From: Candidatus Aenigmatarchaeota archaeon
GTDB lineage: Archaea > Aenigmatarchaeota > Aenigmatarchaeia > QMZP01
NCBI GenBank assembly: GCA_016198585.1
Contig: JACQII010000005.1
Location: forward strand, 1 to 64,000
DNA length: 64,000 nucleotides
Direction of reading: 5' to 3'
Below, piece by piece: positions 1-22,529 of the stretch. Position 1 is the stretch's first letter. Each line of letters opens with the position of its first letter. The notes under the pieces were generated by a model. The model saw only the letters and a list, made by a program, of their open reading frames with translations, searched no databases and had not been told where the DNA came from. The position numbers and the translations under genes were made by a program.

Positions 1-245
1 AAGAGTTTATTCTTATATATGTACTTTGCTATATATGTAAAAATACACTATCTATGAAAAATATAAATGACAGTATGGTTTATAAAGGATGTTATATGGT
101 ATATGTTTTTGTCTTTCCCGGGGTTCCGCATTCCAGGGGAGAGTGAGAGGTGGAAGCGGACATCCCTCGAAAACAGGCATCAATAGGCCATACACGTATG
201 CGAGGCGAAGAGCGGGCATTTAAAGATGATTTCCCAGCCTGTCTC
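1..245. other. AT-rich intergenic region at window start
   Basis: No gene is supported here. The first ~115 bases are AT-rich, unlike the rest of the window, with several TATATA and TTTATAAAGG stretches. One copy of the 21-bp GTGAG-N10-GGACAT site lies at 143-163. A TATA-like ATTTAAAG at 218-225 is placed about 24 bases before the ATG at 246. A longer frame from a GTG at 150 exists but would place this TATA box inside coding sequence. Confidence 0.5.
143..163 (+). repeat. 21-bp site copy 1 (GTGAG-N10-GGACAT)
   Basis: Exact GTGAG, 10 variable bases, exact GGACAT. It lies left of the small gene at 246-545. Base 10 of the spacer is C, as in all copies. Confidence 0.7.
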
Positions 246-545
246 ATGATCCAGGCTAGCAAAACGAGTGAACGCATCCAGATGGGGAGATGGTGGCTGG
301 AGCGGGAAGCCAGCCTCGAACCCAATGGGCAGGTCTGGGTACGGTGGCGCTACGGCACCCCAGAGAGCTGCTACTATTCCCCGCTGATCAAGGAAGGCGA
401 CCGGATCGTCTACATTGACATCCTGGCGGAAGACCGGCGGAGCATGGTCCACCTGCCCGCCGAGGTCGACGTCAGCTTCGGCGGCTCGGAGGGAGTCTTC
501 CGCCCCTACCTCCTGGACGAGAGCGCCAACCCGCCGGCCAAGTGA
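246..545 (+). CDS. Small hypothetical protein (99 aa)
   Basis: I do not recognise the family. The product is acidic and soluble, has no signal peptide or membrane segment, and carries a tryptophan-rich start (GRWWLER) followed by what look like alternating beta strands (QVWVRWRYG, RIVYIDILAED). I chose ATG 246 because an ATTTAAAG box lies ~24 bases upstream, the leaderless arrangement used by neighbours; a GTG at 150 would add 32 residues. Its stop codon TGA is embedded in the GTGAG of 21-bp site copy 2, so the gene is bracketed by copies 1 and 2. Confidence 0.6.
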   Translation: MIQASKTSERIQMGRWWLEREASLEPNGQVWVRWRYGTPESCYYSPLIKEGDRIVYIDILAEDRRSMVHLPAEVDVSFGGSEGVFRPYLLDESANPPAK

Positions 546-562
546 GACGTGGGAACGGACAT
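542..562 (+). repeat. 21-bp site copy 2 (GTGAG-N10-GGACAT)
   Basis: Exact match to both half-motifs at the fixed 10-base spacing. It overlaps the stop codon of the 246-545 gene and sits 28 bases before the next start at 590. Confidence 0.7.
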
Positions 563-589
563 ATGAGCTTCCTCGGAGAATAAGGGTAT

Positions 590-946
590 ATGATCGACCA
601 TGTCCCGTTCTCCCCGGTCTGGAAGGAAAGCCTGGCGACGGGGGCCAGCCTCTTCTGCATCTCCTTCGTCATCCGCTCTGTCCAGGTCGCCCAGCTCACC
701 GTGGGCTTCGCCCTCTTCTTCATCTTCCTCGGCGTCGTGCTCCAATCCACCGAGCGGTCGTTCACCTCCCTCTGGCTGGGCATCAAGCTCTTCCAGACCC
801 TCTCCATGGTCGTCCTCGGCATCCACATCCTTGTCACCCTGACCGACCTGTTCTTCTGGGCCGCCTTGATCCTCGCCTGCGGCGGGGTCTTCCAGTTCAT
901 CACCCTCTCCCTCTGGTTCCGGGGATCCCTGGAAATCGAAGACTGA
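590..946 (+). CDS. Four-helix small membrane protein (118 aa)
   Basis: Four hydrophobic segments cover residues ~18-35, ~38-55, ~62-80 and ~86-108, joined by short loops. No conserved motif is recognised. The ATG follows GGGTAT, a pre-start sequence also seen at the recombinase gene (2844) and SulP gene (5464). The gene is bracketed by 21-bp sites at 542-562 and 954-974 in the same orientation. Function unknown; a small integral membrane protein is all that can be said. Confidence 0.7.
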   Translation: MIDHVPFSPVWKESLATGASLFCISFVIRSVQVAQLTVGFALFFIFLGVVLQSTERSFTSLWLGIKLFQTLSMVVLGIHILVTLTDLFFWAALILACGGVFQFITLSLWFRGSLEIED

Positions 947-953
947 CTCCAGA

Positions 954-974
954 GTGAGACATGCGATCGGACAT
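954..974 (+). repeat. 21-bp site copy 3 (GTGAG-N10-GGACAT)
   Basis: Exact half-motifs at 10-base spacing, 7 bases after the stop of the 590-946 gene. A TCTCAC at 990-995 could pair with GTGAGA at 954-959 to form a ~42-base folded element. Confidence 0.7.
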
Positions 975-1015
975 CCGGAAGCCGGCTACCTCTCACTTTC
1001 GCCGCGGGAGGGAAG

Positions 1016-1036
1016 GTGAGCCTTCGAAGCGGACAT
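1016..1036 (+). repeat. 21-bp site copy 4 (GTGAG-N10-GGACAT)
   Basis: Exact half-motifs. The last base coincides with the stop codon of the minus-strand DUF483 gene, so this copy marks its 3' border. Confidence 0.7.
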
Positions 1037-1908
1037 TACCACGGCCTGGACTGCAGGACGTTCTCCGCGATCGCGCTGTTCACCGCGGCATGCGCGGCAT
1101 GCTCCCTGGTCCAGAGGAAATACGCGTTCATGTGCAGGAGCAGGTTCCGGTACATCATCCCGGTCACCGCATCGTACCTCTCAAGCCCTGCGCGGATCTC
1201 CTTCCCGTGCGTGGCTGCGCGCGCACAGCCGGGCGCGCAGGGGAACAGGTCCATGGTAAAGTAGGACGAGACGACGTCCTCGGGCAGGTCCCGAGAGCGC
1301 GCCGTATTCTCACCCACCCTCCCTGACGGCATGCCGAGCAGCGCCTCCAGTTGCCGGCGTGGCCGTGTCTGCGGTTCCTGGAGGATGGCCTGCACCTCAG
1401 GCCCGCTGGTGCCCTTCCCCAGGGCGCCCTGGTCTGCCATCTGCTCCATGGCCGTCCGCTCCGACGCCACGAACGTCTCGACGCAGCACTCGGGAAGGCC
1501 GAGGAGCTCCCCATCCAGGCGGATCCCCTCGAGATACGCCTCACTCCTCCGGCCCTGGCGGATGTCCTGGGTCGCTTGGCGGAACGCTGCCCTCACTTTC
1601 CCGGGATCTGCCTCCTGGGAGAAATAGAAGCGGCCGTAGAGGGTGCCGCTCCCCAACGTGGGCTGGAGCGCATACCCAACTCTCACTTTCCCCTCCAGCC
1701 CCTTGACCTCGGCGTAGATGCTCTCCTCCTCGAACGCCCGACAAGCCTGCCCGTAGTCTTCCGGAAGCTCCCCGACTCCCAGGGCTGGGGTGGTGATCGC
1801 CGCCGCCTCCCGGGCCCCGGCCAGGACCGGGAAGTACGCGTCCAGGGCAAAGAGTGGCCAGATAGCCTGGGTCGCCCGCTCCCACGTCTCCCACACCTGT
1901 CGTTCCAT
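1036..1908 (-). CDS. DUF483 family protein
   Basis: This 290-residue protein carries the features I associate with archaeal DUF483: the LPECCVETF segment near residue 140 and SYFTMDLFPCAPGC near residue 215, both with paired cysteines that could bind metal. Biochemical role unknown. Start M at 1908 is chosen because GATTTAAAG (1929-1937, minus strand) lies ~25 bases upstream; a longer frame begins at 1974 but would overlap that box. The TATA box itself lies inside 21-bp site copy 5, so the site could also act as an operator. Confidence 0.75.
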   Translation of the reverse strand: MERQVWETWERATQAIWPLFALDAYFPVLAGAREAAAITTPALGVGELPEDYGQACRAFEEESIYAEVKGLEGKVRVGYALQPTLGSGTLYGRFYFSQEADPGKVRAAFRQATQDIRQGRRSEAYLEGIRLDGELLGLPECCVETFVASERTAMEQMADQGALGKGTSGPEVQAILQEPQTRPRRQLEALLGMPSGRVGENTARSRDLPEDVVSSYFTMDLFPCAPGCARAATHGKEIRAGLERYDAVTGMMYRNLLLHMNAYFLWTREHAAHAAVNSAIAENVLQSRPW

Positions 1909-1923
1909 GCCCTCCCCTGGGGA

Positions 1924-1944
1924 GTGAGCTTTAAATCCGGACTT
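1924..1944 (+). repeat. 21-bp site copy 5 (GTGAG-N10-GGACTT)
   Basis: One mismatch (GGACTT for GGACAT). The spacer contains TTTAAA, the probable TATA box of the DUF483 gene. Closely similar to copy 6 in front of the recombinase (ATTTAA spacer). Confidence 0.65.
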
Positions 1945-2091
1945 TCCCTGCCCGCCTCCCGAGCCAACCCGCACTTTTGGAGGTGTTTTCCCTCCTGGAC
2001 CCCACCCCTCCCCTCACAAACCACCCCGTTCCCCGAGACCGCCCAAAAACCACATCCCCGAGAGTGGCGATACATACCGATTTCCAGCCCA

Positions 2092-2119
2092 ATGTCCGGA
2101 AATAGGTCTTTCCGGACAT
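2092..2119. repeat. Perfect 11-bp inverted repeat related to the 21-bp site
   Basis: ATGTCCGGAAA and TTTCCGGACAT are exact reverse complements separated by 6 bases. ATGTCCGGA is the same half-motif as in the 21-bp sites, so this looks like two half sites head to head. Could be an operator, a recombinase site or an RNA hairpin. Confidence 0.6.
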
Positions 2120-2161
2120 GCAGATCAGGCTCGGGCGATGACCGGGAACCTCTGACTTGCC

Positions 2162-2347
2162 GTGTACAGAACGGTGACGCGAACAGTGGCGCAGTCAGAG
2201 GAGAAGCTCTAAAGCTACTTCCTGACCGGGCTCGTCCAAAAGAATATCCTTCTGGACTTTCCGGCTATCATCGTCCACGATCCTGCCGCCATCACGTATC
2301 AGAAGATCTCCTTTGCCGACCTCGCCCGCCAGGTCTGGGGAGCCTAG
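2162..2347 (+). pseudogene. Possible broken small gene with in-frame TAA
   Basis: Reading from GTG 2162, the frame has 16 codons, then TAA (2210-2212), then a protein-like stretch (YFLTGLVQKNILLDFP, then HDPAAITYQ) to TAG at 2345-2347. The post-stop part looks like genuine protein but has no usable start codon. Most likely a remnant gene, in keeping with the shuffled character of this region. It could also be chance; no family is recognised. The rest of 2120-2449 holds nothing else I can support. Confidence 0.3.
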
Positions 2348-2449
2348 CTCGGCGGCCGCCGCAGGGAAGGTCATGCCGGACGCTGGAAGACACCGATGAA
2401 ACCTATTTATGTCCATAGACCAACGACAACGCAAGGAGGCTGTTGATCG

Positions 2450-2782
2450 ATGGTCACGGTGATTGCGGTCCTGGTGCAGTTCGTGCTGAGCCTGCTCGTG
2501 TCCGGGATTCTGATCTACGTCGTCACCAAGGCCCTCCGGCAGAAGGAAGGAGTCGGCACGGCCCTCGGCGCTGCCCTCGTCGGGTCGGTCATCTATGCTG
2601 GGGCGTATTTCTTCCTGGGCACCGGGATCCTCGCAGCGCTGGTCGGCGGGGTCGTCTGGCTCATCGCTCTGGGCAGCCTCTACGAGATGGGGTGGACGAA
2701 GGCCTTCGCGATCGCCTTCATCGTCTGGTTCCTGGCCACGGTGATCGGCACGTTCCTGCCCACGCTGACCGGGCCGCTCTGA
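2450..2782 (+). CDS. Hydrophobic membrane protein (110 aa)
   Basis: Four predicted transmembrane segments (residues ~5-25, ~37-57, ~60-78, ~85-104) with a short basic loop (KALRQKEG) after the first. No family recognised. A TATA-like CTATTTATG at 2402-2410 and a GGAGG at 2432-2436 lie upstream, the latter 13 bases before ATG, rather far for a standard Shine-Dalgarno site. The gene precedes the recombinase and 21-bp site copy 6. Confidence 0.7.
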   Translation: MVTVIAVLVQFVLSLLVSGILIYVVTKALRQKEGVGTALGAALVGSVIYAGAYFFLGTGILAALVGGVVWLIALGSLYEMGWTKAFAIAFIVWFLATVIGTFLPTLTGPL

Positions 2783-2803
2783 CCTCGTGGAACCCGCAGC
2801 ACC

Positions 2804-2823
2804 TGTCCGGATTTAAGTCTCAC
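2804..2823 (-). repeat. 21-bp site copy 6, inverted (TGTCC-N10-CTCAC)
   Basis: Opposite orientation to copies 1-5. The spacer includes ATTTAA, the likely TATA box of the recombinase gene 21 bases downstream. Nearly the same sequence as copy 5 read from the DUF483 gene's own strand. Confidence 0.7.
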
Positions 2824-3404: not shown

Positions 3405-3436
3405 CGGACCGTCTCCATCGCTTCATATGGTAAGGC

Positions 3437-4453
3437 TCACTCGGCAAGGTCGAAGAAGAACGGGGGCATCCAGAAGTAGTGTCGGCCGAGGAACCTCGCA
3501 AGGGCGGGCAAATCCTGCAACTGATTCAGCTGCTGCCCGATGTTTTCTCCAGTGTGGCGGTACGCGTACGGTCTTTCGAACCCGTTGAGCTTGTCATGCT
3601 TTTCGAGACAGTCCGCAGCCTGGGAAGGGCGGCCAGCCTGGTGGTGGAGCCATCCCAGATAGAAGTAGACCCCCGAGAGATAGTCCCAGCGCCCGTCAGG
3701 GTCCTTCTCCTCCCTCTCCTGCAGGCTGCCGAAGCCCCGATACTCTGAAAAGGAGACGGGGTATGTCTGCAGAACACGCTCAAGGGTTTCGAGGGCCTTG
3801 TCCGTGTCGCCCATCCAGCCATACGCCGTTGCCAGGCCGATCAAGGCCTCGTGATCGCTGGGGTCCTGCTCTGCGAGGCTCTGAAAACAGGCAATTGCCC
3901 GGGGATCCCTCTGGGAGAGGTAGAGGTTCCCCAGCGGCAATAACGCCTCGGGGACTTCAGCCTTCGCCCGCTCAAAGCATGCGATCGCCCGGTCTGGAGA
4001 TCCGCGCTTTTCATGGGCGAGTCCTAACGGATAATACAGGCGCGGCTCTTCGGGTCGCAGATCAACTGCTCTCTGGAAGTACGTGAGCGCCTTCTCCAGG
4101 TCAGGATCAGGATCATCCCCCGAAGCGTCCTGCTTCAAGAAGAACTTCCGGAATATTTTCCTCACCGCCCCGAGGGACCCCTGTGGACCTTCAGTTCGCA
4201 TGAGATAGGCCGCTCCGACAAAGGAGTAAAAGTGAGGGTTATCCGTCACGTGCTCCAGGGTAGGTTCACCGACTTCGATGATCCGTTCCCACGCGTCTCT
4301 CGAGAAGTTGTCCCGCTGGAGCGCTTCTAGCGCATGGACGAGATCCTCCCCCGAGGCTCTCCTCCACTCCTGCGTCTCCGGGTTGTCCCGCAGGGCATCC
4401 TCAAGTTCAGACCAGCCGAACTGCTCCTCGAAATAGTCATCAAGCTCTCCCAT
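3437..4453 (-). CDS. TPR repeat protein
   Basis: About 338 residues with several tetratricopeptide repeats from ~110 to ~290 (for example ALTYFQRAVDLRPEEPRLYYPLG, residues ~115-137, and LIGLATAYGWMGDTDKALETL). TPRs form helical scaffolds for protein-protein contacts; no enzymatic domain is seen. The acidic N-terminal ~90 residues are helical and unassigned. Start M at 4453 is preferred over ATG 4462 because the box CTTAAACC (4474-4481, minus strand) is ~24 bases upstream, giving a leaderless message. Partner unknown. Confidence 0.8.
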   Translation of the reverse strand: MGELDDYFEEQFGWSELEDALRDNPETQEWRRASGEDLVHALEALQRDNFSRDAWERIIEVGEPTLEHVTDNPHFYSFVGAAYLMRTEGPQGSLGAVRKIFRKFFLKQDASGDDPDPDLEKALTYFQRAVDLRPEEPRLYYPLGLAHEKRGSPDRAIACFERAKAEVPEALLPLGNLYLSQRDPRAIACFQSLAEQDPSDHEALIGLATAYGWMGDTDKALETLERVLQTYPVSFSEYRGFGSLQEREEKDPDGRWDYLSGVYFYLGWLHHQAGRPSQAADCLEKHDKLNGFERPYAYRHTGENIGQQLNQLQDLPALARFLGRHYFWMPPFFFDLAE

Positions 4454-8340: not shown

Positions 8341-8661
8341 TCACTTCTTGACCTTCTTCTTGGCTTTGTCGTCGGCCGCGTCTTGGAGGGTGGTGAACTT
8401 CTTGACCACGGTCTCGAGGTTCTGGGCGATCTCCCACCCGTCGTCGGTCAGGATCACGCGCTTGATCCGGCCCTTCTTCTCGAACGAGACCATACCGAGC
8501 TTCTGGAAGACGTTCAGGATCTTGATCGTGTGGGAGTAGGTGCAGTCCGCTTCCTTCGCCAGGATCGTGGCGTAGACCCCGCCCTTCGCGGACTTGATCC
8601 CGGTGATGATGCGCACGGGCTTCTCGCGAAGAAAGAGGTCGCCGAGGATGGAATTGCCCAT
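8341..8661 (-). CDS. Small winged-helix DNA-binding regulator
   Basis: About 106 residues with a winged helix-turn-helix: helix region VYATILAKEADCTYSHTIKILNVF, then the wing KKGRIKRVILTDDGWEIA, then a Lys-rich tail. Similar in layout to archaeal MarR/ArsR-like single-domain regulators. ATG 8661 is preferred because TATTTAAG (8685-8693, minus strand) lies ~28 bases upstream; ATG 8670 and a start at 8706 are also in frame. It leads a two-gene operon with the membrane protein downstream, which may be linked to its signal. Confidence 0.8.
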   Translation of the reverse strand: MGNSILGDLFLREKPVRIITGIKSAKGGVYATILAKEADCTYSHTIKILNVFQKLGMVSFEKKGRIKRVILTDDGWEIAQNLETVVKKFTTLQDAADDKAKKKVKK

Positions 8662-8758
8662 ACAGTCCATTGTTTGAGCCGCGTGCTTAAATAGGTTCCG
8701 GCGCAAAAAGGATTTTATAACATATGTGTTTCTGCACAGCCGTCGCCTCCCCGGCTGG

Positions 8759-12457: not shown

Positions 12458-12550
12458 ATGAAGATGGATCTGCTCGTCAAGCGGTTCGGCGTCCAGGTCA
12501 TGGACCTGAGCGATCCCGAGTTCTGGATCGAAGGGGATGTCGGTGGCTGA
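12458..12550 (+). CDS. 30-residue leader ORF overlapping radA
   Basis: Frame starts [17 protein letters not shown] and ends at TGA 12548-12550, 14 bases inside radA, which starts at 12537. The TATA box at 12428-12435 fits a leaderless start exactly here rather than at radA. Ribosomes ending at 12550 would be close to the radA start, so this could couple or tune RadA translation. The peptide has a protein-like composition but I know no family. It may be a regulatory leader rather than a functional peptide. Confidence 0.5.
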
Positions 12551-14708
12551 CAAGATCGAAGACCTGCCAGGCGTCGGGGAGAAGACCGCGGAGAAGCTGA
12601 TCGAGGTCGGCTACACTGACTTCATGTCGATCGCGGCCTCGTCAGCGGGGGAGCTGATGACCGCGGCCGGCCTGGGCGAGGAGACCGCGAGCAAGATCAT
12701 CGAGGCCGCGCGCCAGAAGCTGAACATGGGTTTCGAGACCGCGACCGAGGTCATGAAGCGCCGAGAGAAGATCGGCAAGATCACTACCGGCAGCAAGACC
12801 CTCGACGCCCTGCTCGGCGGCGGGATCGAAAGCCAGGCCATCACGGAGGCATTTGGCGCCTTCGGCTGCCTGACCGGAAACGCGAAGATCACCCTCGCGA
12901 ATGGGCAGATGGTGCCCATCGGTTCATTTGGTAGGGGATTGCAACCCGGAATATACCCGGTCTCCATTCCTCTCTTGAGCGTCTCCGGCAACTCGCTGCT
13001 CCAGGCCACCGCGACCAACCTCCACGTGTACGCGTGTGACGCTGTCCTGGATGTGGTCCTGCACAATGGCATGCACCTTTCTGTCACGCCCAACCACCCG
13101 CTCATGACCCAGGACGGGTGGAAGGAGGCAGGCAAGCTCCTCCAGACGGACAGCCTGAAAATCGTGCATGATCAGGCATTCCCGCAGGAATATGTTCCTT
13201 TGCAGACCGAGGTCGCCGTCAACAGGTTCGCAGCCAACACCAAAAGAATTCTTCTTCCCGAGAAGCTCACCCCCGAACTAGCTGAGATCATTGGCTACGT
13301 CCTTGCCGAAGGGTGGACAGAAAAGACGCGACCCCATCTGCGTGTCTCAAGGGTGTGTTTTACGAACACGAACAGCGCGCTCCGGGACCGATTCAGAGAC
13401 CGGGTTGCCGAAGTCTTCCATGAGGAAGTGAATATCCGGTACGAACGTCCCGACATTATTGCACTGTCCATCGATTCGGTTTTTGTGGGAGCCTTCCTGT
13501 CGCAATTTGCTGGCCTGTATGGACGAGCCAAGGAGAAATATGTCCCCGAACAATTCTTCCGCTCCCCCAAGGAAGTGATCGTGAGCTTCCTCGCTGCGTT
13601 CTACGACGGGGAAGGTCACGTCAAGGTGGATGTGGAGAAAGAGCGAGAGAAGATTGTCCGATGGACCAATAAAGACGGTCAGACGCACGCGAAAGGGTAC
13701 CAACTCGCCAGCTTTGCCCACGATGTTGACCTCCGAAGCGCCAGCAAGAAGCTGCTGGAAGGGGTGCAAGTCCTCCTGACGAAGCTGGGTATCCACAGCT
13801 GGATGAGCCAGGACACGACCAAGAGAGACGGCAAGGAATTCCTGGCCTACAAGCTCCACATCAGCAACCAGCACGACATCTCGTCTTTCTACCACCAGGT
13901 CGGTGTGCACACGCTGCGGCTGAGGGAGAGGATTGAGAAGTGTCTCGAAAGCTACAAGCGCGTGAGCGCCCGACCAACGGACATGGTCCCGCTTTCGTCG
14001 CTCACGTGGACGCCAACGCCAGATGGCAAGGTCTACGACCTAGAGGTTCCCGAGTTCCACAACTTCCTGGCTGACAACATCCTTTCCCACAACTCCGGGA
14101 AGAGCCAGCTCGCCCACCAGCTTGCGGTGACTGTCCAGCTTCCCAGAGAGAAAGGTGGCATGGCAGGGAAGGCATTGTTCATTGACACAGAGCAAACTTT
14201 CCGCCCCGAACGTATCCGCGACATGGCAAAAGGCCTGGGCCTCGATCCAATCAAGACACTCGAGAACATCTACGCGGCTCGCGCCTACAATTCCGACCAC
14301 CAGGTCGTGCTCTCGGAGAAGGCCGAGGACGTCATCAAGAACAACAACGTCAAGATCATGATCGTCGACTCGCTGACCGCGGCCTTCAGGTCGGACTACA
14401 CCGGCCGCGGAACCCTCGCGAACCGGCAGCAGAAACTCAACCGCCACCTCCACCAGCTCCAGCACCTCGCGGACGTCTACAACATCGCCATCTACGTCAC
14501 GAACCAGGTGATGGCCCGGCCAGACGTCCTGTTCGGCGATCCGACTGCACCGATCGGCGGCCACATCGTCGGCCACCAGGCCACCTTCCGCCTCTACCTC
14601 CGCCGCTCCAAGGGCGAGAAGCGCATCGCCAAGCTCATCGACTCCCCCTCCATGCCCGACAGCGAGACCATCTTCACGGTCAGCACCGACGGCATCAGGG
14701 ACGAATAA
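12537..14708 (+). CDS. radA: DNA repair/recombination recombinase RadA, intein-containing precursor
   Basis: RadA polymerises on single-stranded DNA and catalyses homologous pairing. The 723-residue precursor has an N-terminal helix-hairpin-helix domain ([13 protein letters not shown], residues 9-21). The ATPase core is interrupted inside the Walker A motif: ..AFGAFG, then the intein (111-519), then SGKSQ. Walker B is VKIMIVDSL, and the L2/C-terminal segment [19 protein letters not shown] is conserved. Splicing would yield a 314-residue RadA, a normal length. The precursor cannot bind ATP, so splicing is essential for activity. Start overlaps the upstream mini-ORF. Confidence 0.95.
12867..14093 (+). 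mobile_element. RadA intein with LAGLIDADG homing endonuclease
   Basis: A 409-residue in-frame insertion. It begins with Cys ([10 protein letters not shown], splicing block A), has block B-like [13 protein letters not shown] (TxxH), two dodecapeptide endonuclease motifs (IIGYVLAEG and [10 protein letters not shown]), and ends with [10 protein letters not shown] followed by Ser+1. All residues expected for standard protein splicing (Cys1, His-Asn end, Ser+1) are present, and both LAGLIDADG motifs keep acidic residues, so the endonuclease may be active. Base composition is somewhat lower in GC than the flanking exteins. Confidence 0.93.
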
Positions 14709-21266: not shown

Positions 21267-21287
21267 ATGTCCGCTTCCCGGTCTCAC
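21267..21287 (-). repeat. 21-bp site copy 7 (ATGTCC-N10-CTCAC)
   Basis: Exact half-motifs at the same 10-base spacing as the copies at 0.1-2.8 kb. It lies 5 bases beyond the stop of the AAA+ ATPase gene. Confidence 0.65.
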
Positions 21288-22345: not shown

Positions 22346-22435
22346 GTCATATCAACCTTCACGTCACCTTCACGCACCAGGACGACCCCGGTACTTCCAG
22401 AAGTGAAGTTGAGATTTATAAGCGTTGTTGCCCGG

Positions 22436-22456
22436 ATGTCCGGAACCACCGCTCAC
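22436..22456 (-). repeat. 21-bp site copy 8 (ATGTCC-N10-CTCAC)
   Basis: Exact half-motifs, 91 bases upstream of the AAA+ ATPase start and 74 bases before thpR. Same orientation as copy 7. Confidence 0.65.
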
Positions 22457-22529
22457 TTTTCCCTCACCGCCCTTCGAGGAATGCGTGTGGAGGTGGTGCC
22501 TATAAAGGGATGTTCGCGCAACTAATCGC

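Follow-up and report, generated by a model that had tools for sequence, protein, structure and literature searches.

What are the short sites that recur at gene borders beside a minimal tyrosine recombinase in the genome of an uncultivated archaeon: ends of gene cassettes, operators of one regulator, or signals of another kind? The question arises from a DNA stretch of 64,000 nucleotides (hereafter the window; positions 1 to 64,000 of contig JACQII010000005.1, called C14 here) of a member of Candidatus Aenigmatarchaeota, a DPANN archaeon with a tiny genome, whose assembly (GCA_016198585.1) comprises 941 kb in 16 contigs. The window genome was searched together with 40 others of the order (41 genomes in all; the prefixes G, C and L denote genomes, contigs and loci). 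Patterns and statistics were explored post hoc on data already seen, and modest P values are descriptive only. The 21-bp sites were found to be a real recombinase-linked system of gene-end sites at a conserved Xer-like locus, for which cassette ends are the best single account, an unproven one.

A preliminary description had reported six copies of GTGAG-N10-GGACAT within 2.7 kb. All six are present, those starting at 143, 542, 954 and 1016 being exact and the remaining two, at 1924 and in inverted orientation, carrying one mismatch each; the inverted copy occupies 2803-2823, its start having been given as 2804. The fixed gap, the placement at gene borders and the bracketing of open reading frames (ORFs) 246-545 and 590-946 and of a DUF483-like gene were likewise borne out, while the family assignment of the last fell short (21.7 bits against a cut-off of 25). 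The conserved word is GTGAG-N9-CGGACAT, the base preceding GGACAT being invariably C. The genome-wide search that had been proposed returned six exact matches in the 941-kb assembly (about 0.45 expected), all on C14: four in the 143-2823 cluster plus two that flank an ATPase gene at 21-22 kb. The genome read backwards, as a control, gave none. At two mismatches, the window yielded 22 matches against 19.25 expected; with no excess at this level, only near-exact copies were counted. In all eight sites of the window, the CGGACAT side faces a palindrome at 2092-2119, and this CGGACAT end is identical to the outer 7 bp of the palindrome arm.

The palindrome, which together with the two sites at the ATPase gene was absent from the preliminary description, is perfect, dif-like and unique in the genome (ATGTCCGGAAA-TAGGTC-TTTCCGGACAT, that is, two 11-bp arms around a 6-bp spacer, or 11-6-11). 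Such a palindrome lies upstream of and next to the mini-recombinase gene in seven genomes, one per genome; elsewhere in the 41 genomes searched, only one weak match with three mismatches was found, in G030. The association of palindrome and recombinase is found in two domains. A Nitratidesulfovibrio plasmid carries the same 11-bp arms upstream of a tyrosine recombinase (L217:2501-2528), on an Acinetobacter plasmid, a 194-aa tyrosine recombinase is preceded by a variant 11-6-11 palindrome in which the spacer is unchanged (L216:2502-2529), and a scan of IMG/VR returned a single contig, on which the arms and spacer of G006 recur unaltered immediately ahead of a catalytic-domain-only recombinase (L215:11088-11115). 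Protein identity between the archaeal mini-recombinase and the plasmid enzymes is only 27-30%. Matches in E. coli and Aneurinibacillus plasmids were partial, with no annotated recombinase alongside, and were rejected. Because it stands upstream of orthologues in seven genomes and of recombinases on unrelated bacterial plasmids, the palindrome is very probably the core site of the XerA-like mini-recombinase, the evidence being good and indirect; its position on the plasmids suggests a widespread plasmid resolution module.

The enzyme itself had been recognized correctly as an adjacent tyrosine recombinase of 186 amino acids (aa). Active-site motifs (GLR, HPHxxR, LGH and Y) are present. Its best profile is XerA_Arch (156.3 bits, under the cut-off of 220), matched over model positions 91-261 of 263, and the N-terminal core-binding domain of full-length Xer proteins is missing. 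The IntI-type profile TIGR02249 scored 114.6 bits (cut-off 265) with a match in two pieces; XerA aligns end to end and IntI4 in two stretches. By sequence, the nearest protein of solved structure is the archaeal XerC-like (XerA) protein 4a8e. Orthologues with about 57-69% identity were found in a dozen genomes of the order, the first catalytic arginine being lysine in those of G010, G014, G018 and G020. Several of the orthologue-bearing genomes additionally encode a longer XerA-like protein, so that equating the mini-recombinase with the standard XerA would be too simple.

The surroundings of the recombinase are conserved as well. At 10 of 13 loci compared, its neighbour is a winged-helix gene, and the locus usually runs from an AT-rich border through the winged-helix gene, palindrome and recombinase(s) to a second AT-rich border; at the borders, the AT-rich DNA is followed by outward-directed AAAAAGTGAG or a close variant of it. 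A second recombinase (Rec2) is inserted between the winged-helix gene and the mini-recombinase in G010, G018 and G020, and has a palindrome of its own (GGTTTACTTTT-CATCAT-TTTGTAAACTA in G010 and G018, with close variants in G017, G026 and G040). As the neighbouring genes are common to several genera, the locus has the appearance of a chromosomal, vertically inherited one. In the window, 5 kb separate the winged-helix gene from the recombinase, whose orientation relative to it is inverted, indicating that the locus is rearranged there; the stop of the winged-helix gene at 8341-8706 falls within a degenerate GTGAG word.

Three further features of this locus were observed. First, the stretch between Rec2 and the mini-recombinase encodes a protein that has a conserved (V/M)ECGPC motif, matches no Pfam family with confidence (L047:7402-8496, L046:5-496 and L194:4689-5297), and is fused to the mini-recombinase in G010. 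Second, the gene adjoining the winged-helix gene in G030, G032 and G040 (family f4; L084, L085 and L194) starts like a HerA-type translocase, a likeness recognized from sequence and not by family search. Third, assemblies tend to break near the locus (contig ends of G000, G007, G016 and G028; combined P=0.016), which may point to variability within the population or to nothing more than AT-rich or repetitive DNA.

Multi-copy sites stand beside recombinases in four genomes: the window genome and, from the search of relatives, G017, G010 and G006. Their right arm is CGGACAT in G017 and G010, and GAAATTTGAC at the same distance in G006. Matches with CGGACAT numbered 28 against 0.5 for shuffled right arms, and those with AAATTTGAC 12 against 0.03, the totals of 28 and 12 including other-gap matches, N20 coding matches and two chance matches in G006. 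Contigs of G017 carry repeated single-gene units, for example C77 1216-2294 and 2294-2787, the middle site of which (2294) has a 10-base gap. Exact matches within ordinary coding sequence (G017 C11 and C83; G006 C10 and C12) were treated as chance, and among viral contigs none had a G006-type site.

Placement was assessed on 24 sites from the four genomes, with the genes for stop and start distances picked by hand. Sixteen sites are no more than 10 bp from a stop and four equally close to a start; none lies inside a gene. ORFs of 55 aa or more (a few of them possibly spurious) have their stop codon inside 14 of the 24, whereas 2000 random trials averaged 2.8 and never exceeded 9; several genes terminate in AAG TGA G, the stop being donated by the site. 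Moreover, the N9 of neighbouring sites are more alike than shuffled ones (permutation P=5e-4 overall). Gene-end placement and shared N9 thus fit cassette ends better than a promoter element or operators. A promoter element conserved at the same genes in all relatives, which the preliminary description had named as the result that would speak against its reading, was not what was seen.

A word resembling the sites was also observed within recombinase genes. ATGTCCG-N4-TRCGA...CCTCAC precedes the catalytic HPH..R motif in G007, G016, G018, G020 and G024 (L080, L086, L088, L089 and L090; one base off in L088), and GTGAG-N20-CGGACAT matches sit in the NVRK..HPH region of relatives' recombinase genes. 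The arginine codon at this word is CGN in genes that mostly use AGR (CGN is only 1 of 24 in G024). The word could be a recombination site, as in suicidal integrases, or a coding coincidence; the CGN codons hint at a constraint at the DNA level.

Table 1. Sites, palindrome, genes and other features of the window
Feature	Position	Strand	Remark
21-bp site, exact (GTGAGAGGTGGAAGCGGACAT)	143..163	+	After AT-rich contig end
21-bp site, exact	542..562	+	TGA stop of ORF 246-545 comes from its AAGTGAG
21-bp site, exact	954..974	+	Stop of ORF 590-946 lies 7 bp before
21-bp site, exact	1016..1036	+	Abuts stop of DUF483-like gene
21-bp site, one mismatch (GGACTT)	1924..1944	+	15 bp upstream of start of DUF483-like gene; includes TTTAAA
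21-bp site, one mismatch (GGACAG), inverted	2803..2823	-	Between ORF 2450-2782 and recombinase; + strand reads TTTAAG
21-bp site, exact	21267..21287	-	5 bp past stop of ATPase gene
21-bp site, exact	22436..22456	-	Upstream of TATA box of ATPase gene
dif-like palindrome, 28 bp	2092..2119	none	11-6-11
Tyrosine recombinase, 186 aa	2844..3404	+	Catalytic domain only, XerA-like; Phage_integrase 121.8 bits
AGTGAG, left half-site lacking right arm (weak)	3436..3441	-	After recombinase
AT-rich stretch	1..120	none	Precedes site 143
99-aa ORF, unknown function	246..545	+	Between sites 143 and 542
118-aa probable membrane protein	590..946	+	Between sites 542 and 954
DUF483-like gene (sub-threshold match)	1036..1908	-	Between sites 1016 and 1924
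110-aa probable membrane protein	2450..2782	+	Between palindrome and recombinase
Winged-helix gene	8341..8706	-	Recombinase's neighbour in relatives; here 5 kb off, opposite strand
AAA ATPase with winged helix	21293..22345	-	Between sites 21267 and 22436

These results can be joined in the following account, in which the window would be an expanded chromosomal Xer-like recombination locus and its sites asymmetric, dif-like cassette ends; we hold it tentatively, at a little under an even chance. The ancestral locus would have had the order seen in relatives, from AT-rich border through winged-helix gene, 28-bp palindrome and mini-recombinase (sometimes with Rec2) to AT-rich border. Judging from geometry and association, the mini-recombinase would bind the 11-bp arms (ATGTCCGRAAA/TTTYCGGACAT) and swap strands in the 6-bp spacer. 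The 21-bp copies would keep the outer CGGACAT of the arm and use AAGTGAG as the other boundary, with a variable middle. Single genes would be bracketed, their stop often supplied or abutted by the site, so that gene plus site would act as a cassette comparable to the dif/pdif modules of Acinetobacter. The recombinase would then cut the 21-bp sites and the units would move. Consistent with acquisition, though not with any specific route, no homologue of the DUF483-like gene was found among the 40 other genomes; the other bracketed units had no matches either, in a search limited to the retrieved loci. A broader proposal, somewhat unlikely in our estimate, is that of an integron-independent archaeal cassette system, in which a catalytic-domain-only Xer at a fixed dif-like locus captures and shuffles single genes via asymmetric sites derived from dif arms, while relatives keep an empty locus, some with a site in the recombinase gene. 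No description of this site system was found in the open-access papers searched, where absence is weak evidence.

Several observations weigh against cassettes. Neither an empty site nor a circle or a moved unit was observed. Recombination between bracketing sites, which frequently lie in direct orientation, is putative. By our own reasoning, simple insertion at the palindrome would give the orientation opposite to that of the sites. The arm shared with the palindrome is 7 bp only, and the palindrome of G006 retains CGGACAT although the sites of that genome have GAAATTTGAC. Classical tyrosine recombination requires matching overlaps, yet most neighbouring sites are not identical in the middle nine bases (2-8 of 9 shared), and the similarity of these bases, significant in G017 (P=0.004), is not so in G000 or G006 alone. 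Most other recombinase-bearing relatives have no array but a single GTGAG element or none. Furthermore, the bracketed ATPase gene is a resident: the order PRC-ATPase-LigT is conserved across the family, relatives have no sites at this locus, and alignment of the region with the sister genome revealed no clear insertion. At least one site pair thus arose around a resident gene. The cassette array proposed at the outset is supported in part: it stands on recombinase linkage in four genomes, gene-end sites in mostly single-gene units, shared spacers and the palindrome-arm end, and falters on movement, the resident ATPase, the lack of arrays in most recombinase-bearing relatives and a polarity of the window sites for which other roles could account.

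Of the other explanations, polar signalling survives best. The sites would be polar signals at a dif-like locus that either guide a translocase to the palindrome (KOPS- or ASPS-like) or stop forks (Ter-like), in which case the winged-helix protein might be the terminator protein, and the bracketing would arise because signals avoid coding sequence. The orientation of the eight window sites towards the palindrome agrees with it, and in G010 and on the Rec2 contig of G017 the sites face the Rec2 palindrome. Within 6 kb of 17 recombinase loci, AAGTGAG ranks first in polarity among 5708 7-mers (55 outward and 17 inward). The locus is syntenic across genera, the HerA-like gene start stands alongside in G030, G032 and G040, and published polarised sequences point to archaeal dif, HerA having been suggested as the translocase (PMC2958812). 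Together, the uniform polarity of sites, that of AAGTGAG, the published dif words and the HerA-like neighbour make a guiding signal or fork trap a serious rival to cassettes. On the other hand, unlike KOPS, exact sites occur on a single contig only and are missing from most relatives; AAGTGAG alone is directed outward and full sites inward; the sites hug stop codons; and GC skew around the locus, on partial contigs, is inconsistent between genomes and was dropped as evidence of a terminus. On balance, we regard polar signals as unlikely.

The preliminary description had itself raised the alternative that the sites are operators of one regulator, which could be the winged-helix protein or the recombinase, with a regulon including the recombinase, the DUF483-like gene and the ATPase. 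The TATA-like boxes on which it relied are indeed within two copies, ahead of the DUF483-like and recombinase genes; site 22436 is just upstream of the ATPase TATA box, and the ATPase and PRC genes each have an upstream site. However, operators would hardly lie at stops in 16 and at starts in only four of the 24 cases, their distance to TATA box or start ranges from 0 to hundreds of bases with no fixed orientation to the gene, and the single GTGAG element of relatives is sometimes in convergent intergenic DNA, so that we give this explanation a low probability. We consider it highly unlikely that a small mobile element, ending on each side of the winged-helix/recombinase module in an AT-rich border with AAAAAGTGAG, was repeatedly inserted and lost and that the sites at gene borders are what remains of its ends: AT-rich DNA followed by outward AAAAAGTGAGAGTT or a close variant at both module borders in several genera and the contig breaks near the module would agree with it, but the module keeps its neighbours across genera and looks vertically inherited, and comparison with the sister genome gave no clear sign that the DNA around the site upstream of the ATPase had been inserted.

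Elsewhere in the window, the intergenic DNA between LigT and ATPase genes (22346-22529, and its counterpart in relatives) contains repeated GTGAAG/CTTCAC words, and the ATPase, with its C-terminal winged helix, may bind its own promoter. Origin recognition boxes, considered on account of the bracketed AAA ATPase, were rejected, since the ATPase is not Orc1/Cdc6 and good orc1/cdc6 matches are on C5 and C6. An intein that includes a LAGLIDADG endonuclease domain splits the RadA gene (12537-14708).

In DPANN archaea, with their tiny genomes, gene gain and exchange are poorly known, and an Xer-type cassette locus, if true, would be a route of capture apart from archaeal integrons. Even under the rival explanations, archaeal chromosome resolution becomes testable at a conserved locus where a mini-Xer and a dif-like palindrome occur together with polar words, AT-rich borders and, in some genomes, a probable HerA-type translocase, and the palindrome common to bacterial plasmid recombinases provides a ready substrate in vitro.

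Among known systems, Cre/loxP-type plasmid resolution modules have a palindromic core site (13-8-13) just upstream of the recombinase gene. The present locus shares this arrangement, which was found here on bacterial plasmids too, and differs in being chromosomal, 11-6-11 and accompanied by extra asymmetric sites. Suicidal (SSV-type) archaeal integrases (PMC8371274) have a possible counterpart in the site-like sequence inside the recombinase gene of some relatives; no such sequence was found in the window's recombinase gene, whose Phage_integr_3 score of 19.9 bits is below the cut-off of 27. Like integrons, which are reported in archaea (PMC9668308), the window has a recombinase, an adjacent single site and mostly single-gene units each ending at a short site. 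Unlike them, it has array genes (246 and 590) that read toward the recombinase, and an enzyme that fits XerA better than IntI; an attC interpretation was rejected, as 0 of 23 sites had the RYYYAAC...GTTRRRY (R'/R'') pair and the mean folding z was -0.3, with no hairpins.

The archaeal XerA/dif system (PMC2958812) comprises one 28-bp 11-6-11 site per genome with polarised words pointing at it and HerA as the suggested translocase. An XerA-like recombinase, polarised words and a single 11-6-11 site per chromosome were also found here, the last in seven genomes (in G030 along with its weak second match). Unlike in XerA/dif, the recombinase lacks the N-terminal domain, the palindrome is always beside its gene, there are extra asymmetric sites, and several genomes hold the additional longer XerA-like protein. 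In the dif/pdif modules of Acinetobacter (XerCD; PMC12907356), 28-bp sites of two 11-bp arms, typically in inverse orientation, delimit modules common to several replicons. Only 7 + 5 bp are conserved in the present sites, which are mostly in direct orientation, share no module that was found, lack the two 11-bp arms and 6-bp centre, and in G006 have a different right arm. Genes of the window are flanked by sites that we infer to be of Xer type, and the resemblance to dif/pdif lies in short sites that bracket genes, in conserved outer arms around a variable centre, and in an island whose sites fall at gene borders.

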